From: Hyphomicrobiales bacterium
Lineage (GTDB): Bacteria > Pseudomonadota > Alphaproteobacteria > Rhizobiales > Xanthobacteraceae
NCBI GenBank assembly: GCA_009377695.1
Contig: WHTP01000045.1
Span: 1-41,046, forward strand
Direction of reading: 5' to 3'
DNA length: 41,046 nt
The notes under the pieces are model-generated. The model ran no database searches, was not told the DNA's origin, and saw only the letters and a program-made list of their open reading frames with translations. The translations under genes and the position numbers were made by a program. This document shows, one piece after another, positions 11,074 to 41,046 of this stretch. Positions within the stretch are counted from its first letter, which is position 1; the number at the start of each line of letters is the position of its first letter.

Positions 11074-11148
11074 CTAGTGTCCCGATTCCGAAGTTCGTTC
11101 CATTTCGCAGCGGCCTTTTATACGAACTTCGGAATCGAAGGACACTAG
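11074..11148 (-). repeat. CTAG palindrome B, locus I
   Basis: A 75-nt imperfect palindrome with CTAG at both ends. The arms include ACTTCGGAATCG and its partner CGATTCCGAAGT around an unpaired centre, with outer termini CTAGTGTCC/GGGACACTAG. The 13-nt spacer CAACTTATTGATT separates it from palindrome A, so the unit reads A-spacer-B on the minus strand. Confidence 0.9.
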
Positions 11149-11161
11149 CAACTTATTGATT

Positions 11162-11239
11162 CTTGTGTGGCTTTGGTTCAGAAGTCCGCATGTTGGATTC
11201 GCCGCAAGAATGATGCGGACTTCTGAACCGCCACACTAG
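11162..11239 (-). repeat. CTAG palindrome A, locus I
   Basis: A 78-nt imperfect palindrome paired with B at 11074-11148. The stem uses GGTTCAGAAGTCCGCAT and the partner ATGCGGACTTCTGAACC, with outer arms GTGTGGC/GCCACAC. The left terminal CTAG is mutated to CTTG in this copy and the right CTAG is intact. It lies between engB and argB. Confidence 0.9.
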
Positions 11240-11310
11240 CGATTCCGCCCTTCCCCCTCGCCGCCCCGCCCGCTAAAAGGCAGCGCGACCCGATACTCCG
11301 CATTTGATCC

Positions 11311-11363
11311 GTCATCCTGAGGTGCGAGCGAAGCGAGCCTTCGGCCGAGCACCTCAGGATGAC
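11311..11363. repeat. REP-type palindrome (GTCATCCTGAGG family)
   Basis: GTCATCCTGAGGTGCGAGCG at the left pairs with GAGCACCTCAGGATGAC at the right, enclosing AAGCGAGCCTTCGGCC. This is the most compact of the GTCATCCTGAGG copies in the window. It ends 33 nt before the argB start codon, so it lies in the argB leader. Confidence 0.85.
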
Positions 11364-11396
11364 GGGTCGGAAACCGAGTTCTGCTGAGGATCACCC

Positions 11397-12281
11397 ATGA
11401 CCGTTACGCCCCACGATATCGCCCACGTCCTGTCGGAGGCGCTGCCGCACATGCAGCGCTATGACGAGGAGATCGTGGTGGTGAAGTACGGCGGCCACGC
11501 CATGGGTGAGGAGGAGATGGCGCGCAGCTTCGCCCGCGACATCGTGTTGATGGAGCAGACCGCCATCAATCCGGTCGTGGTGCACGGCGGCGGCCCGCAG
11601 ATCGGCGGCATGCTCAAGCGTCTCGGCATCAAATCGGAGTTTGCTGACGGGTTGCGCGTTACCGACGCCGCCACCATCGAAGTCGTCGAAATGGTGCTGG
11701 CGGGCTCGATCAACAAGCAGATCGTCGGCTTCATCAACGCGGCCGGCGGCAAAGCGGTCGGCCTGAGCGGCAAGGACGGCGACATGGTCAAGGCGCGCAA
11801 GCTCAGCCGCCACGTGGCCGATCCCGGCTCCAATATCGAGAAGGTCGTCGACCTCGGCTTCGTGGGCGAACCGGAGCGGGTCGACACCATGGTGCTCGAC
11901 CAGATCCTCGGGCGCGATCTGATCCCCGTGCTGGCGCCGCTCGCGACCTCGGCCGATGGCACCACCTACAACGTCAACGCCGACACCTTTGCCGGCGCCA
12001 TCGCCGGCGCGCTCAAGGCAAAGCGCCTGCTGCTGCTCACCGACGTGCCGGGCGTGCTCGACAAATCGAAGAAGCTGATCGACCAGCTCACCGCTGACGA
12101 GGCGCGCCGCCTGATCGCCGATGGCACCATCTCCGGCGGCATGATCCCGAAGGTCGAGACGTGTCTCTATGCGCTCGATCAGGGGGTCGAGGGCGTCGTC
12201 ATTCTCGACGGCCGGGTGCCGCACGCGGTGCTGCTGGAACTGCTCACCGATCACGGTGCCGGCACGCTGATGCGGCGGTGA
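11397..12281 (+). CDS. argB: Acetylglutamate kinase
   Basis: ArgB phosphorylates N-acetylglutamate, the second step of arginine synthesis, in the cytosol. The 294-residue protein matches the family throughout: VVKYGGHAM near residue 29 (phosphate-binding Lys and Gly-rich loop), [14 protein letters not shown] (about 60-73, acetylglutamate site), [42 protein letters not shown] and [10 protein letters not shown] near the C-terminus. GAGGAT sits a few bases upstream of ATG 11397. In relatives argB follows engB and precedes a HAD nucleotidase. Here it is cut off from engB by repeats and from the nucleotidase by chrA and a radical SAM gene. Its stop is only 18 nt from the convergent chrA stop. Confidence 0.96.
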
Positions 12282-12299
12282 TTTCCCGCATCGGTCTAA

Positions 12300-13517
12300 T
12301 CAAGCTGCCGCCAGGTAAGACAGGGCAGAGCCGCCTAACGCGCAAAGCAGCACGACCAGCCATGGCGGCGTCTGCCACATGAACAGAAGCAGGAAGGCAA
12401 CGACGGCGAGCGCATAGTCCGCCGGGGTCAAAATCCCCGCGGTCCAGACCGGATGGTAAAGCGCAGCGAGCAGCAATCCGACGACAGCGGCATTGATGCC
12501 GCGCAACGCGGATTGAGCGAGGACTTGGCGACGAAGGGCCTCCCAGAAAGGAAGCGCACCGACAACCAGAAGAAATGACGGCAGAAATACTGCGACCAGG
12601 CACAACGTCGCGCCGACCCAACCGTTCGGGGTGGAGCGCATGACAGCCCCAAGATAGGCCGCGAACGTGAACAGCGGTCCAGGCACGGCCTGCGCTGCTC
12701 CGTAACCTGCGAGGAACGTATCGTTGTCAACCCAGCCTGGCGGCACGACCTCCGCCTGGAGAAGCGGAAGAACGACGTGCCCCCCGCCGAACACAAGCGA
12801 TCCCGCACGATAGAATGCGTCGAACAGATCGATGCTCTGACTGGTGGTGGCCCCCGCCAACAATGGCAACCCGATCAATAGAGCGAGGAAAATGACCAGG
12901 GCAGCGACGGCCTGTCTTCGCGTGATGGAAAGCGTCAGCGGGACGTGATCGTCGGCCGGCGGCGCGCTTCGCATCAGCGTCAACCCAACGATCGCGCCCA
13001 GCACGATGGCCCCCACCTGTCCCCAGGCGGTCGGAATTGATATCGCGAGGACGGCGGCAGCGACCGCGACCGATGCTCGCTCCCGATCCGGCGCCAGCGA
13101 ACGCGCCATGCCCAACACGGCGAGCGCGACCACCGCGACGGCTGCGACCTTCAATCCATGGAGCCAGCCGGCTCCAGTCACGTTGCCAAACGCTGAGAGA
13201 CCATATGCAAAGAGCACCAGCGCGACGGCGGACGGCAACGTAAACGCGGTCCATGCGGCCAGTGCGCCAAGATACCCGGCGCGGGACAACCCAATAGCCA
13301 TGCCGACCTGGCTTGACGCGGGGCCAGGAAGAAACTGGCATAGGGCTACGAGGTCGGCATAGGCCCGTTCGTCGAGCCATTTGCGGCGCTCCACAAACTC
13401 GTGGTGAAAATACCCAAGGTGTGCGACGGGGCCACCGAACGAGGTCAAACCCAACTTCAAGAAGGCGATGAATACTTCGACGGCATTGCCGGGATTCGAG
13501 CCACCGTTCATGAACAC
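12300..13517 (-). CDS. chrA: Chromate transporter, long-chain CHR family
   Basis: CHR-family proteins export chromate from the cytoplasm, usually by proton-coupled antiport; some members may carry other anions. This 405-residue protein shows the duplicated layout. The first half has GLTSFGGPVAHLGYFHHEFV and LVALCQFLPGPASSQVGMAIG; the second repeats the pattern in GSLVFGGGHVVLPLLQAEVV and FLAGYGAAQAVPGPLFTFAAYLG. About ten or more hydrophobic segments are present. GTG 13515-13517 opens the frame, and ATG 13509-13511 two codons in is an equally possible start. No chrB regulator is adjacent. The gene lies between argB and the nucleotidase gene, an insertion relative to the usual order. Confidence 0.92.
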   Translation of the reverse strand: MFMNGGSNPGNAVEVFIAFLKLGLTSFGGPVAHLGYFHHEFVERRKWLDERAYADLVALCQFLPGPASSQVGMAIGLSRAGYLGALAAWTAFTLPSAVALVLFAYGLSAFGNVTGAGWLHGLKVAAVAVVALAVLGMARSLAPDRERASVAVAAAVLAISIPTAWGQVGAIVLGAIVGLTLMRSAPPADDHVPLTLSITRRQAVAALVIFLALLIGLPLLAGATTSQSIDLFDAFYRAGSLVFGGGHVVLPLLQAEVVPPGWVDNDTFLAGYGAAQAVPGPLFTFAAYLGAVMRSTPNGWVGATLCLVAVFLPSFLLVVGALPFWEALRRQVLAQSALRGINAAVVGLLLAALYHPVWTAGILTPADYALAVVAFLLLFMWQTPPWLVVLLCALGGSALSYLAAA

Positions 13518-13639
13518 GGCGCACCCATCGCCATCCCTTCATCGCTTCCCCGGTAAATTCCCGGATATGCACCGCATGCAGCACCAGATAGATGGTACCG
13601 AGACGTAGACGATAACCATGAATTTCCCAGCTCGTCGAG

Positions 13640-13718
13640 TGGGGTGGGGTTTGGTTCAGAAAACTCCCTTATCGGACTCGCGGCTCAACCGAGGGGCGTT
13701 TCTGAACGACCACGCGGG
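13640..13718 (-). repeat. Diverged solo copy of CTAG palindrome A
   Basis: The stretch aligns with palindrome A: TTTGGTTCAGA is identical in position and sequence, the central TCGGACTCGC is kept with a 1-nt shift, and the far arm ends TTCTGAAC-GACCAC where A has TTCTGAACCGCCAC. The CTAG termini and the middle of the stem have decayed. No B partner is seen. It overlaps the last codons and stop of the radical SAM gene. Confidence 0.55.
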
Positions 13719-15309
13719 CGGCGTATCGCTCCTGCGGCGACAGATACCTGCTGCCGCGTTCCATTTCGGCGATCCACTGCTCCATCTGCAACGTCATCGA
13801 ACGGGCAAACGGTCCGAGGTGCAGATAGAGCACCATCAACTTGACGACCGTCTGAACTGCGCGCGGATTGATCTTCAGGCAATGCACGAATGTTCGCCAG
13901 AACAGGTGCCCGTGCTCGGGCATCTGATCGATCAGCTTCTTCACCATTTCGATGCCGGCAATGTTGTAACGCCGGTTTGAACGCATCGCGGCGTCCGGGC
14001 GCTGCGAGTAGTCGAGCAAGCCAACCAGCCGCCGGATGCGGTCGCAATAGGCCTCCGGATCCAGCACGTCCCGCACGATGTCCACGTAATCGCGCAGCAC
14101 GTCGCGCTGCGGCCGAAGGGTGTCGAAGTTCAACCCTTGGCCGCAGGTATCGTTCAGCCCGTCGGGCATCAATTCGTGCCCGGAATGCAGCCGACCTTCC
14201 TTGGCGAGCCGGCGCGTCAATTGCGTGTTCGGCAGTGCCGTGAGCAGGCTGACAAGGCTGATCGGGACCGCGGAATCCTGGATGAAGGCGATCATTTCCT
14301 CGGCGACGCGGTTCTTCTCGGTGTCGAAGCCGACAATGAAGCCGGCGGTCACGAAGATGCCGTGGGCATAGATCTTGTGAACGCTGTCGACCAGACTGCG
14401 GCGGGTGTTCTGCTTCTTGCGCATCGCCACGAGCGCATCGGTATTCGGCGTTTCAAGCCCGACGAACACCAGGAAGAAATTCGCTCGGCTCAGCAGCGAG
14501 AGCAGTTCGTCGTCGTCGGACAGATTGATCGACGCCTCGGTCGAGAATTCAAACGGATAGCTCTTTTCCTTGACCCATGCGACCAGGTGCGGAAGGAAGG
14601 CCTTCACCGCTTTCTTATTTCCGATGAGGTTGTCGTCGACGAAATCGACATGGCCGCGATAGCCGAGGTCATAAAGCCGTTCGAGCTCGGAGAGCATCTG
14701 CGCATGTGTCTTGGTGCGCGGCGAGCGGCCGTAGAGCTCGATGATGTCACAGAATTCACAGGTGAACGGGCAACCGCGCGAATATTGCAGGCCGATATAG
14801 AGGTACTGATCGAACTTCAGGAGATCGAAGCGCGGGATCGGAGTCGTGGTGACATCCGCCTTGTAAGGCTCCGCCACGAAAACGCCTTCGCGCACATCCG
14901 CGTTCCAGGCCTCGATGAATTTGTCGAGGATTCCTTCCGCCTCGCCGAGCACCTGGAAATGTGCCGCCTTGTAGACATGCGGGCTCGACGTGGCATCGGG
15001 ACCGCCGACAACAACCGGCGTGCCACGTGCGCGGCACATTTCGATGATGCGCAACGTGTCGGGCTGCTGCACCATCATGCCCCCGGTCATCACCATGTCG
15101 GCCCACGCGAAGTCGTCCTCAGCGAGCTCTTCGGTGTTGCGATTGACGAGCCGCACCTCCCACGCGGGTGGCAGCATGGCCGCGACCGTGATCAGCCCGA
15201 GCGGGGCGGTCGGATATTTGGCGCCGACAAATGCGCAGGACGCCTGATAGCTCCAGAACGAATGGGACCCAAAGCGCGGGTACACCATCAGGACGCGTGG
15301 CGCCTGCAT
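13669..15309 (-). CDS. B12-binding radical SAM protein, HpnP-like
   Basis: This 546-residue protein has an N-terminal cobalamin-binding-type Rossmann domain (VLMVYPRFGSHSFWS, APLGLITVAAMLP, VVVGGPDATSSP) and then a radical SAM domain with the cluster motif RGC-PFT-C-EF-C (Cys180, 184, 187). The downstream part (ALPNTQLTRRLAKEGRL, GQGLNFDTLRPQRDVL) is that of the DUF4070 group containing the hopanoid C-2 methylase HpnP. GHVDFVDDNLIGNKKAVK and GFIVGFDTEK are typical of that group. A B12-dependent radical methylation is therefore plausible, with hopanoids as possible substrate, but no other hopanoid gene lies nearby and the substrate is not proven. Its last codons (KRPSVEPRVR) come from a decayed copy of palindrome A. 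Confidence 0.85.
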   Translation of the reverse strand: MQAPRVLMVYPRFGSHSFWSYQASCAFVGAKYPTAPLGLITVAAMLPPAWEVRLVNRNTEELAEDDFAWADMVMTGGMMVQQPDTLRIIEMCRARGTPVVVGGPDATSSPHVYKAAHFQVLGEAEGILDKFIEAWNADVREGVFVAEPYKADVTTTPIPRFDLLKFDQYLYIGLQYSRGCPFTCEFCDIIELYGRSPRTKTHAQMLSELERLYDLGYRGHVDFVDDNLIGNKKAVKAFLPHLVAWVKEKSYPFEFSTEASINLSDDDELLSLLSRANFFLVFVGLETPNTDALVAMRKKQNTRRSLVDSVHKIYAHGIFVTAGFIVGFDTEKNRVAEEMIAFIQDSAVPISLVSLLTALPNTQLTRRLAKEGRLHSGHELMPDGLNDTCGQGLNFDTLRPQRDVLRDYVDIVRDVLDPEAYCDRIRRLVGLLDYSQRPDAAMRSNRRYNIAGIEMVKKLIDQMPEHGHLFWRTFVHCLKINPRAVQTVVKLMVLYLHLGPFARSMTLQMEQWIAEMERGSRYLSPQERYAARVVVQKRPSVEPRVR

Positions 15310-15573
15310 GAGCCCCTCCCCAATGAAAAAATGCTCCCTACCTCCTTACCATGACACAAAATCGCCATCATCCGCGACAGTCACACAAACCATTGCAGAT
15401 GCATGATTTTTCTCGCGGAAGCGGCTGTCGCCGCAGGCCGGCAGCAACAAATCTTAACATTTCTGCGGGCGATGTCCCCGCGACATTCCGACTCTCCCCG
15501 GAACGCCGCGAGACGGCCGCGAGACAGCCGCTAGACAAAGGCGGCCAATCGCCGTAACGCCACCAAACAAATC

Positions 15574-16287
15574 ATGACCGCCCCTGCCCGCCCTGCTGCG
15601 CCGCGATCCTTCGACCACGTCGACACCTGGGTGTTCGATCTCGACAACACGCTCTACCCGCATCACGTCAATCTCTGGCAGCAGGTGGACGAACGAATCC
15701 GCGACTACATCGCGGACTTCCTCAAGATCGGCCACGAGGAGGCATTCCGACTGCAGAAGGACTACTACAGGCGCTACGGCACCTCGATGCGCGGGCTGAT
15801 GACCGAGCATGGCATGGCGCCTGACGATTTCCTGAAGTTCGTGCACGAGGTCGATCACTCGCCGCTCGAACCGAATCCATCGCTCGGTGATGCGATCGAA
15901 CGGCTTCCCGGCCGCAAGCTCATCCTGACGAATGGTACGCGCAGCCATGCCGATGCGGTGCTGGCGCGGCTGCAGCTCGATCGGCATTTCGAGGACGTGT
16001 TCGACATCGTGGCGGGCGAGCTCGAGCCAAAGCCCTCGCCGGCGGTTTACGACCGCTTCCTGAAGACGCATGGCGTCAAGGCCGAACGGGCCGCCATGTT
16101 CGAGGACCTTGCGCGCAACCTTACCGTGCCATATCGGCTCGGCATGATCACGGTGCTGGTGGTGCCGGAGAACACCCGCGAGGTCTTCCGCGAGGACTGG
16201 GAGCTCGCGGGCCGCGACGAGCCGCACATCGACCACGTCACCGACAACCTGGTCGGATTCCTGGAAACCATTGCCGCGAAACGGTAA
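15574..16287 (+). CDS. HAD-superfamily pyrimidine 5'-nucleotidase-like phosphatase
   Basis: This 237-residue protein belongs to the SDT1/pyrimidine 5'-nucleotidase branch of HAD phosphatases, which hydrolyse nucleoside monophosphates in the cytosol. All four HAD motifs are visible: FDLDNTLYP (Asp nucleophile, motif I), LTNGT (motif II), a conserved Lys in ELEPKPSP (motif III) and FEDLARNL (motif IV, where the acidic pair is E-D). The cap domain lies between motifs I and II. In Hyphomicrobiales this gene usually sits between argB and dapD, which fits this position despite the added genes on both sides. The 15310-15573 gap before it holds no gene I can support. Confidence 0.92.
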   Translation: MTAPARPAAPRSFDHVDTWVFDLDNTLYPHHVNLWQQVDERIRDYIADFLKIGHEEAFRLQKDYYRRYGTSMRGLMTEHGMAPDDFLKFVHEVDHSPLEPNPSLGDAIERLPGRKLILTNGTRSHADAVLARLQLDRHFEDVFDIVAGELEPKPSPAVYDRFLKTHGVKAERAAMFEDLARNLTVPYRLGMITVLVVPENTREVFREDWELAGRDEPHIDHVTDNLVGFLETIAAKR

Positions 16288-16318
16288 GCAATGCCACCGC
16301 GGATGATTCACTCTCGCC

Positions 16319-16466
16319 GTCATCCTGAGGAGCGAGCCATAAGCGCGTTCACGCGCGTCGTCGACACGCTATGGCGAGCCTCGAAGGACGACGGCCCGGA
16401 TGTTGCAAGACCGTGGCCGCGCATCCTTCGAGGCTCGCCGCTACGCAGCTCGCACCTCAGGATGAC
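16319..16466. repeat. Long REP-type repeat (GTCATCCTGAGG family)
   Basis: GTCATCCTGAGGAGCGAG at the left pairs with CTCGCACCTCAGGATGAC at the right. Inner arms GCGAGCCTCGAAGGA and TCCTTCGAGGCTCGC form a second, nested stem. The 148-nt block lies between the nucleotidase and the monooxygenase gene and ends 39 nt before the latter's start codon. It is an extended form of the palindrome at 11311-11363. Confidence 0.85.
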
Positions 16467-16505
16467 GGATCAAAATTGAATGTCGGTGATAGTATAAGAA
16501 GCGTC

Positions 16506-18526: not shown

Positions 18527-18540
18527 GCCTCATAGCAAAG

Positions 18541-18560
18541 CTGCGATATTGAAATCGCAG
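18541..18560. terminator. Short hairpin between convergent genes
   Basis: CTGCGAT at 18541-18547 and ATCGCAG at 18554-18560 form a 7-bp stem with a 6-nt loop, 14 nt after the hydrolase stop. No T-run follows, so any termination role is weakly supported. Confidence 0.3.
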
Positions 18561-18623
18561 GACTTGTCCCGGCCATCGGGAACGCACCTGAAAACGACGC
18601 ACGATCCTTGGAACGACACCCAT

Positions 18624-19363: not shown

Positions 19364-20710
19364 ATGTTGGACTCGATGGGCCCGCGCGCGCAGTGGCGAA
19401 CTCAAAGCGGATTCATTCTTGCGGCGCTGGGAGCCGCCATCGGCCTTGGGAATATCTGGCGCTTCTCTTACGTCGTTGCCGACAATGGTGGCGCTGCCTT
19501 TCTCGCCGTTTATTTCGGAACCATTGTCCTTGTCGGTCTGCCTTTGTTGTTGGTCGAGCTTGCAATCGGCCGCTTGACGCAGCGTGAGGCCGCGTCGGCC
19601 TTTTGGCAACTAGGTAGAACCGCACCCTGGCGCGGCGCAGGCCTTATCGGGGTTTTGACCTCGTTCGTTATTCTCACTTATTATGGCGTGATTACCGGAT
19701 GGGCGTTGAAATATTTTGCCGCTTTCGCGACCGGTCTTTATCCGCTGCAAGCGGGTACGGCGGATGAATACTTCCGAGCTTTTTCCGCCAGTCCAATCGA
19801 ACCGATACTGTGGCAGATCTGCATTATGAGCGTCACTGTCGGCATTGTGCTGGCGGGGATCGAGGGTGGAATCGAGCGAGCCAACAAGATCCTGATGCCC
19901 GTGCTCGCCGCCCTTGTTATCGCACTGGCAATCCATAGCCTGGCGCTTCCCAATGCCGGCCACGGACTGACCTTTCTGTTCGCGCCGAGTTGGGAAGCCT
20001 TGTTGGAGCCGCGCGTTTATCTTGCCGCGCTCGGCCAAGCATTCTTTTCTTTGGGCTTGGCGATGGGCATATTGGTGACCTACGGCAGCTACTTGCCGAG
20101 GCATCAAAGACTCCCAGCGGCCGGTGCGGTCATCGTGCTGGGGGACACGCTGTTTGCAATGGCGGCAGCGATCATTCTTTTTCCGGCGATCTTCAGCTTT
20201 GGAATGAGCCTGGATCAGGGACCAGGATTGGCCTTTGTCACGCTCCCTGAAATCTTCGCTCGGATGACCGGCGGGCAGTTCGTCGGGATTGCATTCTTCG
20301 GCCTGCTGGTGCTCGCCGCACTTACCTCCTTCGTTGCGCTCCTCGAAGTCCCGGTTGCGTTTGCAATCGAGTGGTGGGGCATGAGCCGCGCCAAAGCCAC
20401 GATTTCGATCGGTGTTACGGCTGTCATTCTCGGCGTGCCGAGTTCACTCGGATTTGGTCCCTGGTCTGGCATCACGCTCGTCGGCATGCCGATCATGGAC
20501 GCCATCGATTTGGTGGCTTCGAATATCCTGTTGCCGCTGAGCGGACTGGCAATCGTGCTGTTTGCCGGCTGGCATTGGCATAAAGCCGATGCATTCGCGG
20601 CGGTTGGATTTACAAGAGGATGGCTGGCCGGGCTATGGTGGGGCTTGGTTCGCTACCTCGCGCCGGCTGCGATCATCATCATCTTTCTGCGGTCGCTCGC
20701 TGTGTTCTGA
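19364..20710 (+). CDS. Sodium-dependent transporter, NSS/SNF family
   Basis: This 448-residue inner-membrane protein belongs to the neurotransmitter:sodium symporter family, which in bacteria mostly moves amino acids with Na+. Helix 1 shows the unwound substrate and Na+ site AAIGLGNIWRFSYVVADNGGAAF, the best family signature. About eleven hydrophobic segments are countable, including ALGQAFFSLGLAMGILVTYGSYL (the helix 6 region with its FFSLG turn) and ALTSFVALLEVPVAF. The eleven-helix bacterial form would fit the length. The substrate cannot be assigned. It is preceded by a divergent stress protein gene and followed 30 nt later by a bipartite CTAG repeat. Confidence 0.92.
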   Translation: MLDSMGPRAQWRTQSGFILAALGAAIGLGNIWRFSYVVADNGGAAFLAVYFGTIVLVGLPLLLVELAIGRLTQREAASAFWQLGRTAPWRGAGLIGVLTSFVILTYYGVITGWALKYFAAFATGLYPLQAGTADEYFRAFSASPIEPILWQICIMSVTVGIVLAGIEGGIERANKILMPVLAALVIALAIHSLALPNAGHGLTFLFAPSWEALLEPRVYLAALGQAFFSLGLAMGILVTYGSYLPRHQRLPAAGAVIVLGDTLFAMAAAIILFPAIFSFGMSLDQGPGLAFVTLPEIFARMTGGQFVGIAFFGLLVLAALTSFVALLEVPVAFAIEWWGMSRAKATISIGVTAVILGVPSSLGFGPWSGITLVGMPIMDAIDLVASNILLPLSGLAIVLFAGWHWHKADAFAAVGFTRGWLAGLWWGLVRYLAPAAIIIIFLRSLAVF

Positions 20711-20740: not shown

Positions 20741-20818
20741 CTAGTGTGGCGGTTCAGAAGTCCGCATCATTCTCGCGGCGAGTCCGACATGCGGACTTCT
20801 GAACCAAAGCCACACTAG
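20741..20818 (+). repeat. CTAG palindrome A, locus II
   Basis: A 78-nt palindrome with intact CTAG at both ends. The stem is TTCAGAAGTCCGCAT paired with ATGCGGACTTCTGAA, and the loop contains a small inner hairpin CTCG-CGG-CGAG. It is followed by the 13-nt spacer ATTAAATGAGTTG and palindrome B. Confidence 0.93.
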
Positions 20819-20831
20819 ATTAAATGAGTTG

Positions 20832-20906
20832 CTAGTGTCCTTCGATTCCGAAGTTCGTATAAGCGGCCGCTGCGAAATGGTACGAACTTCGGAATCGGGA
20901 CACTAG
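20832..20906 (+). repeat. CTAG palindrome B, locus II
   Basis: A 75-nt palindrome with intact CTAG ends. The stem is CGATTCCGAAGTTCGTA paired with TACGAACTTCGGAATCG. It ends 2 nt before the stop codon of the convergent HupE gene, so the A-spacer-B unit fills the whole space between two convergent genes and may act as a two-way terminator. Confidence 0.93.
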
Positions 20907-20908
20907 TA

Positions 20909-21523
20909 TCAGGCCCCCGTCGCGTAGCGCTGCAGCAGAATCGCGGCGCCGGCGCCGACCGCGAAGGCACCGATCACGCGCATGGCGAGCAGTTGCAGCG
21001 ATGCCCGTTCGATGAGCATGCGCACACCGGACATGATCGCAAGCGCGATGGCGGTCTGGATCGCCGCGAGCCCGATGAAATAGGCAAGGATCGGCGTACG
21101 CTCAGCGCCGGCGATGGTCTCGCCGAGCGCATAGCCGTTGATCAATCCGGCAGCCACGAACAGCGCGAAGGCGAGATCGCGCCGCAGCGGGTCCTTGCGG
21201 AACACGATCAGTCCGAGCGCGACCACCGACAGTGCGACGAAGATTTCCGCGTTCGGCACCGTCGCCTCGCCGATATGTGCGGCCGCACCGATCACCGTCG
21301 CGATCACGTAACCGGCGGCGAGCAATGCGCCCTTCGGCTGCGCCGCCGCGAGGCATCCGATCGCGACGATGGCCGCCAGATGGTCGAGCCCGATGACCGG
21401 ATGCCCGAGGCCGGAGAGCAGACCGTGCCAGAACGTCGTCGGCATCGCACCGTCCATGGCGTGATGCGCGAACGCCGGATCGGCAGCGAGGAACAGCGTC
21501 AAGGCAAGGATCGTTTTGGCCAT
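20909..21523 (-). CDS. HupE/UreJ-family metal (nickel/cobalt) permease
   Basis: HupE/UreJ proteins are small secondary permeases that bring Ni2+ or Co2+ across the membrane for hydrogenase, urease or B12 enzymes. The 204-residue protein starts at ATG 21521-21523 with a signal-like helix ending AADPAFAHHAMD. It then shows the family motif FWHGLLSGLGHPVIGLDHLAAIVAIG, whose His and Asp residues are the presumed metal ligands. Five or six further helices follow. A longer upstream frame to 21676 is not needed. No urease or hydrogenase gene is nearby; the B12-binding radical SAM enzyme 6 kb away is only a possible user of cobalt. It is divergent from dapD. Confidence 0.88.
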   Translation of the reverse strand: MAKTILALTLFLAADPAFAHHAMDGAMPTTFWHGLLSGLGHPVIGLDHLAAIVAIGCLAAAQPKGALLAAGYVIATVIGAAAHIGEATVPNAEIFVALSVVALGLIVFRKDPLRRDLAFALFVAAGLINGYALGETIAGAERTPILAYFIGLAAIQTAIALAIMSGVRMLIERASLQLLAMRVIGAFAVGAGAAILLQRYATGA

Positions 21524-27715: not shown

Positions 27716-27725
27716 TCTAGTCTAG
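27712..27725. repeat. Three CTAG tetramers in tandem (5-nt period)
   Basis: CTAGTCTAGTCTAG places CTAG at 27712, 27717 and 27722, beginning with the stop codon of the binding-protein gene. The same TCTAGTCTAGCG string occurs at the edge of the 42-nt CTAG palindrome near 28544-28555. Confidence 0.7.
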
Positions 27726-27732
27726 CGAAGCA

Positions 27733-27787
27733 GATTCGACATTCGCGACACACCTCGCAGCAGACACGCGACGCGAATGTTAGAATC
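27733..27787. terminator. Inverted repeat between convergent genes
   Basis: GATTCGACATTCGCG at the left pairs with CGCGAATGTTAGAATC at the right with one or two mismatches, around a loop of about 24 nt. It sits between the convergent binding-protein and LeuD-like genes. A terminator role is possible but no T-run is present. Confidence 0.4.
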
Positions 27788-27802
27788 GGACCACTGGACC
27801 GC

Positions 27803-32463: not shown

Positions 32464-32498
32464 ATGCTTGCAGGAAGGAGGTCACCATGCTTGCAGGA
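32464..32498 (+). repeat. Duplicated start segment before the cytochrome gene
   Basis: ATGCTTGCAGGA occurs at 32464-32475 and again at 32487-32498, a 23-nt period. Between the copies lies AAGGAGGT, an ideal ribosome binding site for the second ATG. Because 23 is not a multiple of three, the first ATG opens only a short out-of-frame peptide. Confidence 0.85.
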
Positions 32499-33005: not shown

Positions 33006-33009
33006 CGGT

Positions 33010-33945: not shown

Positions 33946-34464
33946 TCAACCCTCCACTGCACGCTTTGCGGCCTTGGAAAACTTCTTGGTGATACGGTCG
34001 CGCTTGAGCTTGGAGATGTGGTCGATGAAGAGCACACCGTTGGTATGGTCGATCTCGTGCTGCAAGCAAATCGCGAGCAGGCCGCTCGCTTCGAGCGCGT
34101 GTTCCCGGCCGTGAAGATCGAGATATTTCACACGCACCTGTGCCGGGCGCTCGACGTCTTCATAGTATTCCGGGATCGAGAGGCAGCCCTCCTCGTGCAC
34201 GTCCTTTTCATCCGAGGACCACACGATCTCTGGATTGATGAAGACGCGCCGCTCCTTGTCCTCATCCTTCTTGGACAGGTCCATGGTGATGATGCGCCGG
34301 GCCACGCCGACCTGGATCGCCGCCAGCCCGATGCCAGGCGCGTCGTACATGGTCTCGAACATGTCCTCGACAAGCTTCTTCACGTCCGTGTCGATCTTCT
34401 TGACCGGTTCGGAGACGAGCCGCAACCGCTTGTCGGGAAGGATGAGGATATCGCGCAACGCCAT
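33946..34464 (-). CDS. def: Peptide deformylase
   Basis: Def removes the formyl group from new proteins, reversing the work of the next gene, fmt. The 172-residue protein has the three family motifs: [10 protein letters not shown] (motif 1), EEGCLSIPE (motif 2, Cys metal ligand) and [18 protein letters not shown] (motif 3, HEIDH with two His ligands and the catalytic Glu). ATG 34462-34464 gives [15 protein letters not shown], the typical start; the longer frame upstream has no support. The C-terminal [18 protein letters not shown] is normal for alphaproteobacteria. It is divergent from rmuC. Confidence 0.97.
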
Positions 34465-34612
34465 GCGCGCGATGTAAGCGGTCGCCGGAAATCGGTCAAT
34501 CCGATGGCGTCCGGGAGGCCGGCAGAACACACAGGCATAACCCCTTGAAGCCTCTTGATATCTTGTTCACTTTTTGTTCCTATGCTCCGAATCGCTGTAG
34601 AGTGGGGCTGCC

Positions 34613-35746: not shown

Positions 35747-35772
35747 CCCTCTAAAGTTCCACTCGCTTGTTC

Positions 35773-35826
35773 CGTCACCTGAGGCGGCCGCAAAATGGCC
35801 ACCTCAGGCGCCATAGCAAGATGACG
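35773..35826. repeat. Degenerate REP-type palindrome after rmuC
   Basis: CCTGAGGCGGCC pairs with GGCCACCTCAGG around GCAAAAT, and GATGACGG follows at the right. It is a decayed form of the GTCATCCTGAGG family. The stem lies about 30 nt after the rmuC stop, so it could terminate that transcript. Confidence 0.6.
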
Positions 35827-35873
35827 GATACAGATTCCCAGTCCGGATAAAGACAGAGGAAACCGCGGGGGTG

Positions 35874-35951
35874 CTAGTGTGGCGGTTCAGAAGTCCGCAT
35901 CATTCTCGCGGCGAGTCCGACATGCGGACTTCTGAACCAAAGCCACACTAA
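35874..35951 (+). repeat. CTAG palindrome A, locus III, first copy
   Basis: A 78-nt copy identical in plan to the locus II copy. The left CTAG is intact and the right one is mutated to CTAA. It is followed by the 13-nt spacer ATTCAATGAGTTG. Confidence 0.93.
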
Positions 35952-35964
35952 ATTCAATGAGTTG

Positions 35965-36039
35965 CTAGTGTCCTTCGATTCCGAAGCTCGTATAGGAGGC
36001 CGCTGCGAAATGGTACGAACTTCGGAATCGGAACACTCG
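35965..36039 (+). repeat. CTAG palindrome B, locus III, first copy
   Basis: A 75-nt copy. One arm carries a point change (GAAGCTCG for GAAGTTCG) and the right end is CTCG rather than CTAG. That terminal tetramer at 36036-36039 is shared with the start of the next palindrome A. Confidence 0.92.
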
Positions 36040-36113
36040 TGTGGCGGTTCAGAAGTCCGCATCATTCTCGCGGCGAGTCCGACATGCGGACTTTTGAACC
36101 AAAGCCACACTAG
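36036..36113 (+). repeat. CTAG palindrome A, locus III, second copy
   Basis: A 78-nt copy starting on the shared CTCG at 36036. One stem base is changed (ACTTTTGAACC for ACTTCTGAACC). It ends in an intact CTAG, followed by the spacer ATTCAATGAGTTG at 36114-36126. Confidence 0.92.
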
Positions 36114-36126
36114 ATTCAATGAGTTG

Positions 36127-36201
36127 CTAGTGTCCTTCGATTCCGAAGTTCGTATAGGAGGCCGCTGCGAAATGGTACGAACTTCGGAATCGGGACACTA
36201 G
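36127..36201 (+). repeat. CTAG palindrome B, locus III, second copy
   Basis: A 75-nt copy with intact CTAG at both ends. It stops 8 nt before the start codon of the AmpG-like permease gene, so the right arm of its hairpin makes up the translation-initiation region of that gene. Confidence 0.93.
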
Positions 36202-36209
36202 ACAATCGC

Positions 36210-37583
36210 ATGACCGCCACGCCTGATTCCGCGCCGACACCTGTGCCGGCCTCCTATCTCGACACGATCGCGGTCTACCTGCGCCCGCGGGTCCTGCTCG
36301 TGATGTTCCTCGGCTTCTCATCCGGGCTGCCGCTCGCGCTGTCAGGCTCGACCTTGCAGGTGTGGAGCGCGGAGAGCGGCGTCGATCTCAAGACCATCGG
36401 CTTCTTCACGCTGGTCGGTACGCCGTATACGCTGAAGTTCCTCTGGGCGCCGGTGGTCGACGCCATCGATATCCCGATCCTGTCGCGTCTGCTGGGGCGA
36501 CGCCGGGGCTGGCTGGTGTTCTCGCAGTTCCTGCTGATGGCGGCGATCGTGTTCCTCGCCTTCTGCGATCCCGCGATCTCGCCGTGGCAGGTTGCCTTCG
36601 GTGCGCTGCTCGTCGCCACTGCATCGGCGACGCAGGACATCGTCATCGACGCGTTCCGCGTGGAAAGCCTCGACAAGAGCGAGCAGGCCGCCGGCATGGC
36701 GTCCTACGTCGCCGCCTACCGGATCGGCATTCTCGCCTCGACCGTCGGCATCCTCTATCTCGTCGCGGCCTTCGAAATCTTCGGATTCGCGAAAACGGCG
36801 GCGTGGAACCTGGGATTTATCGGTATGGCGGCGCTGGTGCTGATCGGCATGGCCACCACCATCGCCGCTACTGAACCGCAGCAATCGAAGGATGCGGAGG
36901 CGGCACATGCCGCCGAAAAGAATTCGGTCACGCGCGTGTTGCAGGCCGCCTATCACGCCTTCGCCGACTTCCACGCCCGCGACGCGGCGATCATCGTGCT
37001 GCTGTTCGTGGTGTTCTACAAGTTCTGCGATGCCTTTGCGGGCGCAATGACGGCGGCGTTCGTCATCAAGATCGGATTCTCGGTCGTCGATTACGCCAAC
37101 ATCGTGAAGGGCGTCGGCCTCGCGGCGACGCTGATCGGCGGCTTTGCCGGCGGCGCGCTGGCAGCGCGCTACAGCATGGTGACCTGTCTCTGGCTCGGCG
37201 CGCTGCTGCAGATGGCGTCGAATCTCACCTTCACCTGGCTCGCGCTCATCGGCACCAATCATTGGGCGCTGGTGACCGCGATCATCGCGGAGAATTTCGC
37301 CGGCGCGATCGGCACCGTGATCTTCGTCGCGTATCTGTCGGCGCTGTGCCAGAACCCGTTGCACACCGCGACGCAGTTCGCCTTGTTGACGGCTCTTGCC
37401 GCGGTCGGTCGGACCTATCTCTCGGCCAGCGCCGGGATCGTCGCCGAGGCCACCGGCTGGCCCCTGTTCTTCGCGATCAGCGCACTGGCCGCGATTCCGA
37501 GCCTGCTGCTGCTCGCGTATCTGCAACAGCGCGGGCACTTTGCCTATCTCGGACCCAAGCGCGTCGTTCGCCTGGACGATTGA
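36210..37583 (+). CDS. AmpG-like MFS permease
   Basis: This 457-residue protein of the major facilitator superfamily resembles AmpG, the permease that brings peptidoglycan breakdown products (anhydro-muropeptides) back into the cytoplasm. Family-like stretches are RVLLVMFLGFSSGLPLALSGSTLQVW at the N-terminus (helix 1), TPYTLKFLWAPVVDAIDIP, and ATQDIVIDAFRVESL with the acidic loop. About twelve to fourteen helices are present. The assignment to muropeptides is by similarity only. ATG 36210 has no good ribosome binding site; a GGGACA lies inside the preceding palindrome. The gene converges on recR. Confidence 0.85.
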   Translation: MTATPDSAPTPVPASYLDTIAVYLRPRVLLVMFLGFSSGLPLALSGSTLQVWSAESGVDLKTIGFFTLVGTPYTLKFLWAPVVDAIDIPILSRLLGRRRGWLVFSQFLLMAAIVFLAFCDPAISPWQVAFGALLVATASATQDIVIDAFRVESLDKSEQAAGMASYVAAYRIGILASTVGILYLVAAFEIFGFAKTAAWNLGFIGMAALVLIGMATTIAATEPQQSKDAEAAHAAEKNSVTRVLQAAYHAFADFHARDAAIIVLLFVVFYKFCDAFAGAMTAAFVIKIGFSVVDYANIVKGVGLAATLIGGFAGGALAARYSMVTCLWLGALLQMASNLTFTWLALIGTNHWALVTAIIAENFAGAIGTVIFVAYLSALCQNPLHTATQFALLTALAAVGRTYLSASAGIVAEATGWPLFFAISALAAIPSLLLLAYLQQRGHFAYLGPKRVVRLDD

Positions 37584-37596
37584 GCCAGCGGATTCT

Positions 37597-38202
37597 TCAA
37601 ATCGCCGTACGCTGGCGCATCGCGGCTGAGAGCGTGCCCTCGTCGAGATAGTCGAGCTCACCGCCCACGGGCACCCCATGTGCAAGGCGAGTCACCGTCA
37701 CGTTGGCGTCGTGCAGCAGGTCGGTGATGTAATGCGCCGTGGTCTGGCCATCGACCGTCGCATTGAGCGCGAGGATGACCTCCTTCACCGCCGGATCGTG
37801 GGCACGCGATACCAGCGCGTCGATCGTCAGGTCGTGCGGGCCGATGCCATCGAGCGGCGACAGCGTGCCGCCGAGCACATGATAGCGGGCATTGACCGCA
37901 TGCGCGCGCTCCAGCGCCCAAAGGTCGGCGACGTCGGCGACCACGACGATGATCGCAGGATCGCGATTGAAGTCGCGGCACACCGTGCAGGGATTCTGCG
38001 TGTCGACGTTGCCGCAGGTGCTGCAAATCTCGATCTTTTCCAGCGCGGTCTGCACCGCGGCCGCGAGCGGCGCCATGATCTGTTCGCGCTTCTTGATCAG
38101 GAACAGCGCGGCGCGGCGCGCTGAGCGCGGACCAAGCCCCGGCAGCCGTGCCAGGAGCTGGATCAGGCGTTCGATCTCGGGTCCGGCAACGGCGCTGGGC
38201 AT
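37597..38202 (-). CDS. recR: Recombination mediator protein RecR
   Basis: RecR acts with RecF and RecO in loading RecA at gaps. The 201-residue protein is full length: an N-terminal helix-hairpin-helix ([21 protein letters not shown]), the zinc finger [16 protein letters not shown] with four cysteines (about residues 59-74), a Toprim domain ([47 protein letters not shown]) and the C-terminal [21 protein letters not shown]. It is the last gene of the dnaX-ybaB-recR order, a widely conserved bacterial operon, though a 72-nt gap with a palindrome separates it from ybaB. Confidence 0.97.
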
Positions 38203-38224
38203 TGTCGTGAGGCTTGCTCCGTTA

Positions 38225-38248
38225 CCCCTCTCCCCTCGAGGGAGAGGG
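38225..38248. repeat. Palindrome CCCTCTCCC...GGGAGAGGG between ybaB and recR
   Basis: CCCTCTCCCCTCGAGGGAGA and the following GGG form a near-perfect palindrome at about 38225-38248, followed by GTGGCACCGCGATCGGTGAGGG. This is another short intergenic repeat type common in Hyphomicrobiales. It lies inside the presumed ybaB-recR transcript. Confidence 0.65.
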
Positions 38249-38274
38249 TGGCACCGCGATCGGTGAGGGAATTT

Positions 38275-38595
38275 TCAGAACAGTTTCATCCCCGGCGGCA
38301 GCGGCAAACCGCCGGCGACACTCTGCATCTTGTCCTTCATCAGCGTTTCGACCTTACGGCGCGCATCGGCATGCGCGGCCACAATCAGGTCCTCGAGAAT
38401 TTCCTTCTCGCCCGGCTTGATCAGCGTCTCGTCAATGCGCACGCCCTTGAGGTCGCCCTTGCCGTTGAGCGTCACCGCGACGAGGCCGCCGCCGGCAACA
38501 CCCTCGACCTCGCTCGACTCGAGCTCAGTCTGCATCGCTTCCATCTTGGATTTCAGTTCGGCGGCCTGTTTCATCAGACCTAAGAAATCGGCCAT
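38275..38595 (-). CDS. ybaB: YbaB/EbfC-family nucleoid-associated protein
   Basis: This 106-residue protein is of normal family length. It opens MADFLGLMKQAAELKSKMEAMQ, followed by SSEVEGVAGGGLVAVTLNGKGDLKGVRIDE and the C-terminal EKEILEDLIVAAHADARRKVE. YbaB proteins form tweezer-like dimers that bind DNA. The gene starts 11 nt after the dnaX stop, so the two are surely cotranscribed, and recR follows. Start ATG 38593-38595 agrees with the family. Confidence 0.96.
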   Translation of the reverse strand: MADFLGLMKQAAELKSKMEAMQTELESSEVEGVAGGGLVAVTLNGKGDLKGVRIDETLIKPGEKEILEDLIVAAHADARRKVETLMKDKMQSVAGGLPLPPGMKLF

Positions 38596-38606
38596 GCCAT
38601 CCTCGT

Positions 38607-40457
38607 CTAATTCTTCGGATCGTCGTCGCGGATCCAGTCCGCACCATTGGAATCGTCGTCGGCGGGCGGCAGTTCCGGCGGCATCTCGTCATCATCGCCG
38701 GACGGCAGTGCCGCCACTTGGTCGGGCGCACGCACATCGACGATCTCCGCACCAGGGAAGCGCGACATCACCGCCTGCACCAGCGGATCGGCACGCACGC
38801 CGGTCTTGAGCTCGGCCTGACGCGCGTCGATTTGCGACTTCACCGTCGGCTGCGCCAACTCGCGGGATACGACGACGACCCAACGCCGGCCTGTCCACTG
38901 CGTGAATTTATTCGAAAGATCATTGACCAGCGTCTTCATGGCGCTGGGCTCAAGTGCGACATCGAGCCGCCCGTCCTCGCAACGCACCAGCCGCACGTCG
39001 CGTTCGAGCGCGGCCTTGACTGAAAGGTCGCGCTTCTGCACGGCGAGCGCGATCAGCCCCTCGAAGCTGTCGATCGCCAGGATCGGCGCAGTCGCTTCCA
39101 CCGCCGGCGCGACGTTGCTCATTGGCTGCGCGGTCGCGAGCGCGGCCCGCGGAGCACCACGCGGCGCATCGGCACGCGGCACGTCGCTACGGGCGCCTTC
39201 GAACCGTGACGCCGCCGTTCCCGTCGGAGCGGCTCCGCCGCCGTTTCCGCCCGGGCGCGGCGCCGGCGCGGAACCATTGCCGTCGAGTGAGCGGATCACC
39301 TCGTCGGGCGTCGGCAGGTCGGCGGCATAGGCGAGCCGCACCAACACCATCTCGGCCGCCGCCAGCGGGCGACCCGACTCCTCGACTTCGGTGATGCCCT
39401 TGAGCAGCATTTGCCAGGCGCGCGCGAGCACACGCATCGACAGCGTCTGAGCAAAGGCGTGGCCCCGCACGCGCTCCGATTCGGCAAATGAGACATCATC
39501 GGCGACCGCCGGCACAATCTTCACGCGGGTGACGAAATGCGTGAACTCGGCAAGGTCGGACAGCGCGACCGCGGGATCAGCACCGATATCGTATTGCGCG
39601 CGCAGCTCCTTCATCGCGGCCCCGGCGTCGCCGCGCATGACAGCCTCGAACAGGTCGATGGTGCGGGTGCGGTCGGCCAGGCCGAGCATCTGCCGCACGT
39701 CCTCGCCGCGGACCGTGCCCGCCGCATGCGCGATCGCCTGGTCGAACAGTGACAGCGAATCGCGCACCGATCCCTCGGAAGCACGCGCAATCAGTGCCAG
39801 CGCCTCGGGCTCGACTGAGATTTTTTCGGTCGCGGCAATACCCTGCAGGTGCCTGACCAGCACGTCGGCATCGACGCGGCGCAGGTCGAACCGCTGGCAG
39901 CGCGATAACACCGTCACCGGCACCTTGCGGATTTCGGTGGTGGCGAAGATGAACTTGGCGTGCGGCGGCGGCTCTTCCAGCGTTTTCAACAGCGCGTTGA
40001 ACGCCGCCGGCGACAGCATGTGCACTTCGTCGAGGATATAGACCTTATAGCGCGCCTGCACCGGCGCGTAGCGGATCGCGTCATTGATCTGTCGCACGTC
40101 GTCGACGCTGTTGTGCGAGGCCGCGTCCATCTCGATGACGTCGAGGTGGCGGCTCTCCATGATCGATTGGCAATGCACGCCGAGCGTCGGCATCGAGATC
40201 GTCGGTCCGGTGACCGATCCGTCCGGCAGCTCGTAGTTCAGCGCGCGCGCGAGGATGCGCGCGGTCGTGGTCTTGCCGACGCCGCGCACCCCGGTGAGGA
40301 TCCACGCCTGCGGAATTCGGCCGGCCTCGAACGCGTTCGAGATCGTGCGCACCATTGCGTCCTGGCCGATGAGGTCGTCGAACGTCGCCGGGCGATACTT
40401 GCGCGCCAGCACCCGGTAGCCGGTGCCTTGCGGAGCGGATTGCGTGGCGTCGTTCAT
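38607..40457 (-). CDS. dnaX: DNA polymerase III subunit tau (and gamma)
   Basis: DnaX is the clamp-loader ATPase of the replicative polymerase. The 616-residue protein has YRVLARKYRPATFDDLIGQ at the start, Walker A GVRGVGKT (residues 56-63), Walker B YKVYILDEVHML, and sensor 1 VTVLSRCQRFDLRR. The usual zinc-ligand cysteines after Walker A are missing: NYELPDGSVTGPTISMPTLG takes their place with a single later Cys, as is usual in alphaproteobacteria. A Pro/Gly/Ala-rich linker near 395-460 precedes the tau C-terminal domain. ATG 40455-40457 (MNDATQSAPQ) is chosen; the longer frame reads through a palindrome. A frameshift site making gamma was not identified. The gene is preceded by ffs. Confidence 0.96.
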   Translation of the reverse strand: MNDATQSAPQGTGYRVLARKYRPATFDDLIGQDAMVRTISNAFEAGRIPQAWILTGVRGVGKTTTARILARALNYELPDGSVTGPTISMPTLGVHCQSIMESRHLDVIEMDAASHNSVDDVRQINDAIRYAPVQARYKVYILDEVHMLSPAAFNALLKTLEEPPPHAKFIFATTEIRKVPVTVLSRCQRFDLRRVDADVLVRHLQGIAATEKISVEPEALALIARASEGSVRDSLSLFDQAIAHAAGTVRGEDVRQMLGLADRTRTIDLFEAVMRGDAGAAMKELRAQYDIGADPAVALSDLAEFTHFVTRVKIVPAVADDVSFAESERVRGHAFAQTLSMRVLARAWQMLLKGITEVEESGRPLAAAEMVLVRLAYAADLPTPDEVIRSLDGNGSAPAPRPGGNGGGAAPTGTAASRFEGARSDVPRADAPRGAPRAALATAQPMSNVAPAVEATAPILAIDSFEGLIALAVQKRDLSVKAALERDVRLVRCEDGRLDVALEPSAMKTLVNDLSNKFTQWTGRRWVVVVSRELAQPTVKSQIDARQAELKTGVRADPLVQAVMSRFPGAEIVDVRAPDQVAALPSGDDDEMPPELPPADDDSNGADWIRDDDPKN

Positions 40458-40487
40458 ACTTTCGTTGCTCCGCCCCTCCGCGTCGTC

Positions 40488-40510
40488 ATTGCCGGGCTTG
40501 ACCCGGCAAT
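40488..40510. repeat. REP palindrome ATTGCCGGG-CTTGA-CCCGGCAAT in the dnaX leader
   Basis: A 23-nt palindrome with 9-bp perfect arms and a 5-nt loop, flanked by GTC and CCATC. This short intergenic repeat is widespread in alphaproteobacteria. It lies about 30 nt upstream of the dnaX start codon, inside the presumed leader. Confidence 0.85.
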
Positions 40511-40637
40511 CCATCATTTTTCCAGAAAGATGGATACAACCCCGAGTTCGACCGCCCATTTAAGAGCTCTGCAAGCCGGAAACATCCGACTTGCAACGGT
40601 CAAGCCCGCGCATGACCGAGATGTGCAAAGAATTCGG

Positions 40638-40735
40638 TGGGAGGCTGACGAGCGACCCGAACCGGAGCTCGTTAGGGCTGCTTCCTTCCGGACCTGACCC
40701 GGTTGGCGAGTGGCTCGTCCACCGCCAACCTCCCG
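40638..40735 (-). ncRNA. ffs: Signal recognition particle RNA (4.5S type)
   Basis: The minus strand carries the invariant SRP tetraloop domain GGTCAGGTCCGGAAGGAAGC (around 40677-40697), with the GGAA tetraloop and the asymmetric loop bound by Ffh. Outward from it, GACGAGC pairs with GCTCGTC, and the ends GGGAGG (40729-40734) and CCTCCC (40639-40644) close the hairpin, giving an RNA of about 98 nt. The RNA joins Ffh and FtsY to target membrane proteins co-translationally. It lies upstream of dnaX on the same strand, the usual alphaproteobacterial order. The exact ends are set by pairing and may be off by a few bases. Confidence 0.94.
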
Positions 40736-40740
40736 GCCTC

Positions 40741-40769
40741 TATATCGGCGGAACGGAACGCGAATGCAA
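40741..40769 (-). promoter_or_regulatory. Promoter of the SRP RNA gene
   Basis: On the minus strand TTGCAT (40764-40769) and GATATA (40741-40746) are separated by 17 nt. The -10 box ends 6-7 nt before the predicted 5' end of the RNA, as expected for a stable-RNA promoter. A CTAG palindrome B ends 10 nt upstream of the -35 box. Confidence 0.55.
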
Positions 40770-40779
40770 GCGCGCCATG

Positions 40780-40854
40780 CTAGTGTCCCGATTCCGAAGT
40801 TCGTACCATTTCGCGGCGGCCTCCTATACGAACTTCGGAATCGAAGGACACCAG
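40780..40854 (-). repeat. CTAG palindrome B, locus IV
   Basis: A 75-nt copy in reverse orientation with left end CTAG and right end CCAG (one change). The arms are CGATTCCGAAGTTCGTA and its partner. The spacer CAACTCATTGATT (40855-40867) joins it to palindrome A. Confidence 0.92.
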
Positions 40855-40867
40855 CAACTCATTGATT

Positions 40868-40945
40868 CTAGTGTGGCTTTGGTTCAGACGTCCGCATGTC
40901 GGACTCGCCGCGAGAATGATGCGGACTTCTGAACCGCCACACTAG
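40868..40945 (-). repeat. CTAG palindrome A, locus IV
   Basis: A 78-nt copy with intact CTAG at both ends, in reverse orientation. One arm carries a change (CAGACGTCCGC for CAGAAGTCCGC) that leaves a mismatch in the stem. It is the fifth A-spacer-B unit of the window. Confidence 0.92.
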
Positions 40946-41017
40946 CCCATCTTTCACGATTCGCGGCGATTTGCTCGTTTTTCGGGGTGCGAAGGGGGCA
41001 AAAACCGAGTCGGATCA

Positions 41018-41046
41018 ATGGCGAGTTTGCGAGATCGGCGTGTAGT
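41018..41046 (+). CDS. Possible start of a gene cut by the window edge
   Basis: ATG at 41018-41020 opens nine codons (MASLRDRRV) that run off the window. There is no good ribosome binding site, so this may not be a gene. It is listed only because the frame is open to the edge. Confidence 0.15.

Follow-up and report, generated by a model that had tools for sequence, protein, structure and literature searches.

Paired hairpins with CTAG feet in the window

The window analysed here is a stretch of 41,046 nucleotides from a Hyphomicrobiales bacterium of the Xanthobacteraceae (contig WHTP01000045.1 of assembly GCA_009377695.1, which is contig 209 of a draft genome of 5.85 Mb in 235 contigs), and it holds five copies of a unit in which two long palindromes, A and B, each ending in CTAG or a mutated form of it (the feet), are joined by a short linker. 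Units of this plan recur across the Alphaproteobacteria and have inserted at the CTAG feet of one another. A first-pass annotation of the window had placed five A-linker-B units in it, with A of 78 nt, a linker of 13 nt and B of 75 nt; direct reading, a hidden Markov model (HMM) and a covariance model bore out the places, and the sizes are the same in all five (Table 1).

Unit 1 sits between a GTPase-type open reading frame (ORF; MMR_HSR1, 10314-11024) and an amino-acid-kinase ORF (11397-12281), while the neighbours of unit 2 are two convergent ORFs, an SNF-symporter (ending at 20710) and a HupE/UreJ protein (ending at 20909). Units 3 and 4 form a tandem pair whose overlap is one common tetranucleotide (36036-36039), and only 8 nt separate the end of unit 4 from the ATG of an ORF of the major facilitator superfamily (36210). 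A signal recognition particle (SRP) RNA gene (Rfam RF00169) lies at 40637-40733 on the minus strand, with 46 nt between its 5' end and unit 5. Mutated feet in the window read CTCG at 36036, CTTG at 11162, CTAA at 35951 and, on the reverse strand, CTGG at 40854.

Table 1. Paired-hairpin units and relics of such hairpins in the window
Feature	Position	Strand	Parts	Basis
AB unit 1	11074-11239	minus	B 11074-11148, linker 11149-11161, A 11162-11239	direct reading, HMM, covariance model
AB unit 2	20741-20906	plus	A 20741-20818, linker 20819-20831, B 20832-20906	direct reading, covariance model, folding
AB unit 3	35874-36039	plus	A 35874-35951, linker 35952-35964, B 35965-36039	direct reading
AB unit 4	36036-36201	plus	A 36036-36113, linker 36114-36126, B 36127-36201	direct reading, covariance model
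AB unit 5	40780-40945	minus	B 40780-40854, linker 40855-40867, A 40868-40945	direct reading, covariance model
Relic, hybrid hairpin	27722-27797	plus	left arm looks E-type, right arm C-type	by eye
Relic, decayed A-type hairpin	13644-13715	minus		HMM, E-value 0.00094; covariance model, 17.3 bits, E-value 0.0051

Asymmetric palindromes with bulges facing each other

The annotation had described A and B as unrelated beyond their termini, which proved wrong because the first 26 nt of their outer arms are identical at 20 of 26 positions (counted by eye in unit 2). Neither palindrome is symmetric: the linker-side arm carries an extra TTT after ten bases in A and an extra TT after nine bases in B. This asymmetry was found in 475 of the 483 distinct palindromes across the sampled loci, with an insert of 2-4 nt in 459 of them, and the T-rich insert of the most frequent forms begins 9 or 10 bases from the foot. 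Among adjacent palindromes lying 10-16 nt apart, the bulged arms face each other in 194 of 215 pairs, and 191 of these 194 consist of one A-type and one B-type hairpin; the remaining 21 pairs include neighbours created by nesting as well as symmetric hairpins. Bulges also point inward in 73 of the 75 recognised pairs among the loci listed from public contigs, which had been picked by a pattern fixing feet and spacing beforehand, and not the side of the bulge.

Using a relaxed criterion in 0.70 Mb of the source genome, another hairpin was found within 40 nt for 126 of 135 palindromes, which refutes the possibility that A and B occur mostly alone and agrees with the earlier description of them as occurring together. 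A and B represent a single type of structure, and the unit follows a fixed grammar consisting of an A-type hairpin, 12-14 nt, a B-type hairpin, bulges directed inward, CTAG feet and matched distal stems, in a length of 160-170 bp, too short to accommodate a transposase. Weak matches revealed further sequences of this design, namely EC, DF, GH, A'B' and D'C'' pairs, the EC pair being exemplified by CTAGTGGAGTGGATTTGACATTCG with CTAGTGGTCCGATTCTAACATTCG.

When the hairpins of unit 2 were folded as single-stranded DNA, z-scores ranged from -8.9 to -10.4 over both strands, with 0 of 200 shuffles in each case. Allowing up to two mismatches, the A arm motif had 257+261 matches in the genome and its reversed form 0+0, compared with 304+286 and 2+0 for the B arm motif; with two arms per hairpin, these counts imply roughly 260 A hairpins and 295 B hairpins in the genome. 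The palindrome scanner returned no match when the sequence of the scanned stretches was reversed. Folding that beats shuffles, arm motifs that outnumber their reversed forms and an empty reversed control together indicate that the units did not arise by chance.

Distribution among genomes

AB-like units occur in six of the eight genomes of the genus, ranging from 2 scored matches in one of them to about 260 pairs in the source genome, while other genomes of this same genus have no match. A covariance model built from 19 aligned units, for which the number of matches per genome was capped and both strands of one unit may each count as a match, matched 88 of 149 genomes of the bacterial family, in 33 of 47 genera. 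From the class, 289 genomes were sampled, and with strict filters 20 of them were matched, the source genome included. An exact pattern scan of species genomes yielded at least 102 stretches. Sources of the 80 loci listed include Nitrobacter, Afipia, Rhodopseudomonas, Acidiphilium, Paramagnetospirillum, Devosia, Hyphomicrobium and Parvularculaceae; the record titles name alphaproteobacteria throughout, apart from five that read only Proteobacteria bacterium. Pattern scans of viral contigs gave 3 and 1 stretches. The AB unit used as a query had no match in plasmid or phage records; 11 plasmid records were matched by an EC unit and 8 by another unit.

Nested insertions and the CTAG target

In ten nestings, a whole unit separates the linker of another unit from one of that unit's hairpins, and the guest is flanked by a CTAG-like foot on both sides whereas an intact host has one foot there. 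Guests lie in the same orientation as the host in six nestings and in the opposite orientation in four, and they are found beside A in five and beside B in five. A further 17 outer tandems have one tetranucleotide in common, and the four-base joints read CTAG in 34 of 36 cases and CGAG in two. One locus (L046) was read by eye as three nesting levels in the order B, linker, C, (D, linker, F), linker, E, A. Such nested insertions show that the units move and that CTAG is a target, in support of the earlier suggestion of a non-autonomous mobile family built from hairpin pairs ending in CTAG. Immediately outside CTAG, the flanking base is biased to C in the outward direction on both sides (p = 0.0016 and 4e-8). 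Units are very dense in one genome (G049; L247-L256), where as many as seven hairpins form an array and units of several subfamilies lie nested in one another.

CTAG had been called rare, which holds for the genome (0.67 per kb against 3.3 by base composition) and is less marked in the window, where 30 occurrences against 44.3 in dinucleotide shuffles (sd 6.1) are only mildly low. Of 470 CTAGs in the genome sample, 204 fall within these palindromes. The position of CTAG relative to genes is biased as well: considering open frames of at least 150 codons ending at a unit's CTAG, 80 unit ends were found at the TAG stop codon frame of CTAG, compared with 24 and 38 at its two remaining frames (479 ends; p = 2e-8). 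For example, the annotated stop of an oxidoreductase gene in Roseibium plasmids lies in the CTAG of a unit, the filled site reading GATCTAG and then the unit, which is present in all 9 records covering the query, and a Paracoccus homologue of this gene ends GATCTAGAGG without a unit. Similarly, the stop of an RraA-family gene in Agrobacterium sp. T29 lies in a unit's CTAG. This use of CTAG as a stop codon suggests a route by which hundreds of copies could be reached without gene breakage. At the window sites themselves, the relatives G005 and G006 lack the unit and their intergenic DNA is too diverged for an empty target to be read.

Unit ends at stop codons raise the possibility that a role in RNA, at mRNA 3' ends or in transcript stability or termination, mainly keeps the pairs and that their spread is secondary. 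The RNA fold of unit 2 is indeed very stable (-97.8 kcal/mol, z -13.6). However, units nest in each other in both orientations, in the window unit 4 closely precedes a start codon and unit 5 the SRP RNA gene, and the number of units within the genus runs from none to that of the source genome, so that we regard an explanation by RNA function as improbable.

Stem covariation and matching of partner hairpins

The 19 units aligned over 173 columns represent six kinds (AB and five further subfamilies). With the two-hairpin structure, which was derived from these same 19 sequences, 97.8% of the alignment cells are paired, and compensatory changes on both sides were found in 30 of 54 pairs and 137 cells against shuffle means of 17.8 and 43.8. 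The distal stems are moreover matched between the partners of a unit, the match being 8.12 within units and 6.50 after re-pairing (sd 0.35; 0 of 2000 permutations) in a test on 17 clusters that are not mutually independent.

A proposed hairpin-reading enzyme in trans and competing models

We consider it about evenly balanced whether the unit is a non-autonomous element with its paired hairpins as ends, inserted at CTAG by a hairpin-reading enzyme acting in trans. According to this model, the left A-type and the right B-type hairpin would act as the two ends of the unit, and insertion into CTAG (weakly G-CTAG-C) would leave CTAG on both sides. The enzyme would recognise the folded hairpins, probably in single-stranded DNA, and the T-rich insert, about one helical turn from the inner foot, may mark the outer feet as the cleavable ones among four CTAGs; we propose that, with the outer feet so marked, the pair would move as one piece. 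The distal stem could then serve as a family-specific address common to both hairpins of a unit. We favour an enzyme of this type as the most likely mover because it explains why the inner arms are kept complementary and bulged in every subfamily. Extending the model to an own kind of transposition system throughout the alphaproteobacteria is more tentative, and we would sooner doubt than believe it: here a trans-acting enzyme, perhaps encoded by a single-copy gene, would read long bulged hairpin pairs, tell outer from inner CTAG feet by the position of the bulge, and park 166-bp units at CTAG, often at TAG stops, with genes unharmed.

The main rival is an ordinary miniature inverted-repeat transposable element (MITE). 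An unseen DDE transposase, of the IS630, IS5/IS427 or another type, would act on the outer ~25 bp as duplex terminal inverted repeats (TIRs) and duplicate TA or CTAG. The inner arms would then be by-products of palindrome formation, and the T insert would merely disable them as ends. The relatedness of the outer ends resembles that of imperfect TIRs, the target is palindromic and insertion is neutral to orientation; in Brucella, IS711 appears to duplicate TA in YTAR and to prefer Bru-RS palindromes, according to the part of that report available (PMC2266754). By contrast, this model leaves unexplained why the inner arms stay complementary across subfamilies, and the transposase searches did not favour it. 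An IS630 transposase had been put forward as the mover, but the IS630-type domain DDE_3 had no match in the source genome at E<=1e-6 and was found in 43 of 88 unit-bearing and 25 of 61 unit-free genomes of the family (p = 0.40), so that an IS630 mover is unsupported. DDE_Tnp_1 (IS4/IS5) lacked a match in 10 of the 29 genomes tested, all ten of them unit-rich, and nine unit-rich genomes (18 or 19 scored matches each, 19 being the cap) had no match to DDE_3, DDE_Tnp_1 or the RAYT family at the cut-offs used, other DDE families not having been searched. Movement as an ordinary MITE is possible in our view but rather unlikely.

The RAYT family (REP-associated tyrosine transposase, of HUH type; REP, repetitive extragenic palindrome) provides another candidate, in which units would be moved as REPINs are, by an enzyme reading bulged hairpins with a tetranucleotide foot. 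The source genome has two full-length RAYT matches and one partial match, and the two bulged hairpins of a unit in inverted arrangement, with a tetranucleotide foot, resemble a REPIN. However, RAYT was found in 32 of 88 unit-bearing compared with 15 of 61 unit-free genomes (p = 0.15), it is missing from 31 of 45 genomes having at least 16 scored unit matches, and the two unit-free genomes of the genus that carry RAYT matches add to the discrepancy. In five RAYT stretches that were scanned (L086, L087, L089, L090, L091), no unit adjoins the gene and the nearest lie 2-4 kb off (L091, L087). The feet, too, are CTAG on both sides of each hairpin rather than GTAG on one. Weakened by the absence of RAYT in unit-rich genomes, a REPIN-like mode of movement appears very doubtful. 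The intact RAYT gene of the source genome (L091 8110-8640, minus strand; NF047646, 182 bits) has no adjoining unit. A Y1 transposase of the IS200/IS605-like HUH type (PF01797) was found in four of the eight genomes of the genus, in the carriers G000 and G006 and the non-carriers G001 and G007.

Several observations weigh against a hairpin-reading enzyme in trans and against the evidence of movement on which that model builds. Of the enzymes searched for as mobiliser, DDE_3, DDE_Tnp_1 and RAYT, none was found to be the mover, other transposase families not having been searched. The sampled loci contain no convincing transposase-bearing version or full-length parent of the units, and clustering of neighbouring ORFs, carried out without annotation, gave no telling neighbour gene (the widest cluster, 19 ORFs from 11 genomes, looks like an ABC transporter by eye). 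Nine of the 135 palindromes in the 0.70-Mb sample have no neighbouring hairpin. With regard to the nestings, the scanner tolerates no more than one mismatch in six at the feet, and the ten nestings are insertions at feet, unit insertions elsewhere inside units not having been looked for; a duplicated CTAG is also indistinguishable from a CTAG target joined to an element that itself ends in CTAG. Beyond the first flanking base, the next three positions show a single weak deviation, at position 3 of the B side (p = 0.02). In a subset of 242 ends the preference for the stop frame is less pronounced (32 compared with 12 and 18; p = 0.003), and 1049 readings at non-unit CTAGs show a weak excess as well (144 compared with 83 and 137). 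The Paracoccus gene is a homologue on another replicon rather than an allelic empty site, and the corresponding codon is TGA in two Sulfitobacter homologues. Finally, further pair types in the alignment are no more frequent than in shuffles (50 against 49.2).

To these points is added the possibility that the covariation itself is mutational and stems from quasi-palindrome correction, in which template switching at palindromes restores one arm by copying its partner and the inner bulge survives solely because the copies are young. Symmetric hairpins do exist (8 of 483 palindromes), and some of them have the bulge copied onto the other arm. However, the six aligned subfamilies and most of the relatives read at class level retain the bulge, and their divergence is far too great for the copies to be young, making such an origin of the covariation highly improbable. 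Quasi-palindrome correction would be expected to yield symmetric hairpins bulged on both arms, and such hairpins were seen at L058 9490-9570 and L095 7377-7453.

An autonomous copy with A and B ends lying far apart was also considered and rejected. One far pair was obtained in each of two scans, neither of them convincing: the first consists of two C-type hairpins in separate arrays 3.4 kb apart, and the second has a gap of 69 nt. Repeats longer than 350 bp in 0.70 Mb of the source genome were limited to unit arrays, in draft sequence that collapses copies of insertion sequences. The relative G006 has a 1.25-kb sequence repeated at 91% identity (L113 16792-18040 and L127 6483-7728).

Relation to known repeats

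Intergenic repeats with paired palindromes are already known from alphaproteobacteria, and the statement in the first-pass annotation that no paired design had been described was too strong. CIR elements of Caulobacter and Brucella consist of two inverted-repeat arms joined by a linker, with TA at the termini (PMC2229807), and like them the units are an alphaproteobacterial intergenic repeat in which A-13 nt-B with CTAG ends shows two arms, a linker and TA at the termini. By contrast, CIR is about 110 bp long, compared with 160-170 bp here, and GANTC at the terminal loop, the CIR hallmark with CcrM sites, is found in the loop of 134 of 692 palindromes. The description of CIR, in the available part of that report, also sets the units apart by their CTAG feet, inner bulge and nesting, which it does not mention (PMC2229807). 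Relatives with a short loop and a comparable plan (L388 and L389, class genomes) measure about 130-133 nt, closer to the reported CIR size.

RIME1 (Rhizobium-specific intergenic mosaic element) is a 108-bp intergenic element and resembles the units in that its two large palindromes differ from each other. Six 50-kb pieces of pSymB (0.3 Mb), which contain probable copies of RIME1, yielded no palindrome of the type described here. In Aminobacter sp. SR38 pSR3 (L397 1420-1505), a unit adjoins the CTAG end of a RIME1-like repeat, which is presumably RIME1; given this junction, RIME1 and the units look like separate elements. A query including this repeat was matched at 1180 places in 354 plasmid records.

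REPINs and GTAG REPs share with the units high copy number, intergenic palindromes that are often dimers and a tetranucleotide foot. However, GTAG REPs have stems of 6-13 bp and GTAG at one end, as described in the part of the source available (PMC3733652), whereas the units have stems of about 26 bp and CTAG on both sides; neither RAYT as a regular companion in carriers nor GTAG at one end of a short palindrome characterises the units. MITEs of the IS630 and IS5/IS427 types are likewise short, gene-less and similar at their termini, with a TA-containing palindromic target, and the units are indeed short, free of transposase and present in many copies, but no matching transposase, full-length parent or cognate autonomous insertion sequence with the same ends was found for them. 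Br-REP1 and Br-REP2 of Bradyrhizobium are palindromic intergenic repeats of related bacteria, but short and with another consensus, going by the available part of their description (PMC5082802). No Rfam family matched the units at its gathering score, sub-threshold matches being mostly to microRNA-like hairpins, and among open-licence papers, searched by title or abstract start, no description of a CTAG-footed, inward-bulged pair was recognised.

The units are a new superfamily of the already known paired-palindrome kind, and their architecture may connect elements that were named separately in earlier work (RIME, CIR). They represent gene-less mobile DNA that is abundant and strictly built across the Alphaproteobacteria, and their fixed grammar makes the mover searchable and recognition of the hairpins testable.

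Relics and other repeats

Both relics in Table 1 gave weak matches. In the hybrid hairpin the linker and the inner arms are gone, and the covariance model matches it at 27733-27787 with 19 bits and an E-value of 0.0019. A different repeat (CCGTCATCCTGAGG...) is present in the window at 11309-11379 and 16317-16350 and belongs to an inverted repeat near unit 1. In another locus (L051, about 797-1319), a B hairpin is split by a ~520-bp insert with inverted ends GGTGCTGTCCTAA / TTAGGACAGCACC, read by eye, which is probably another small mobile element.

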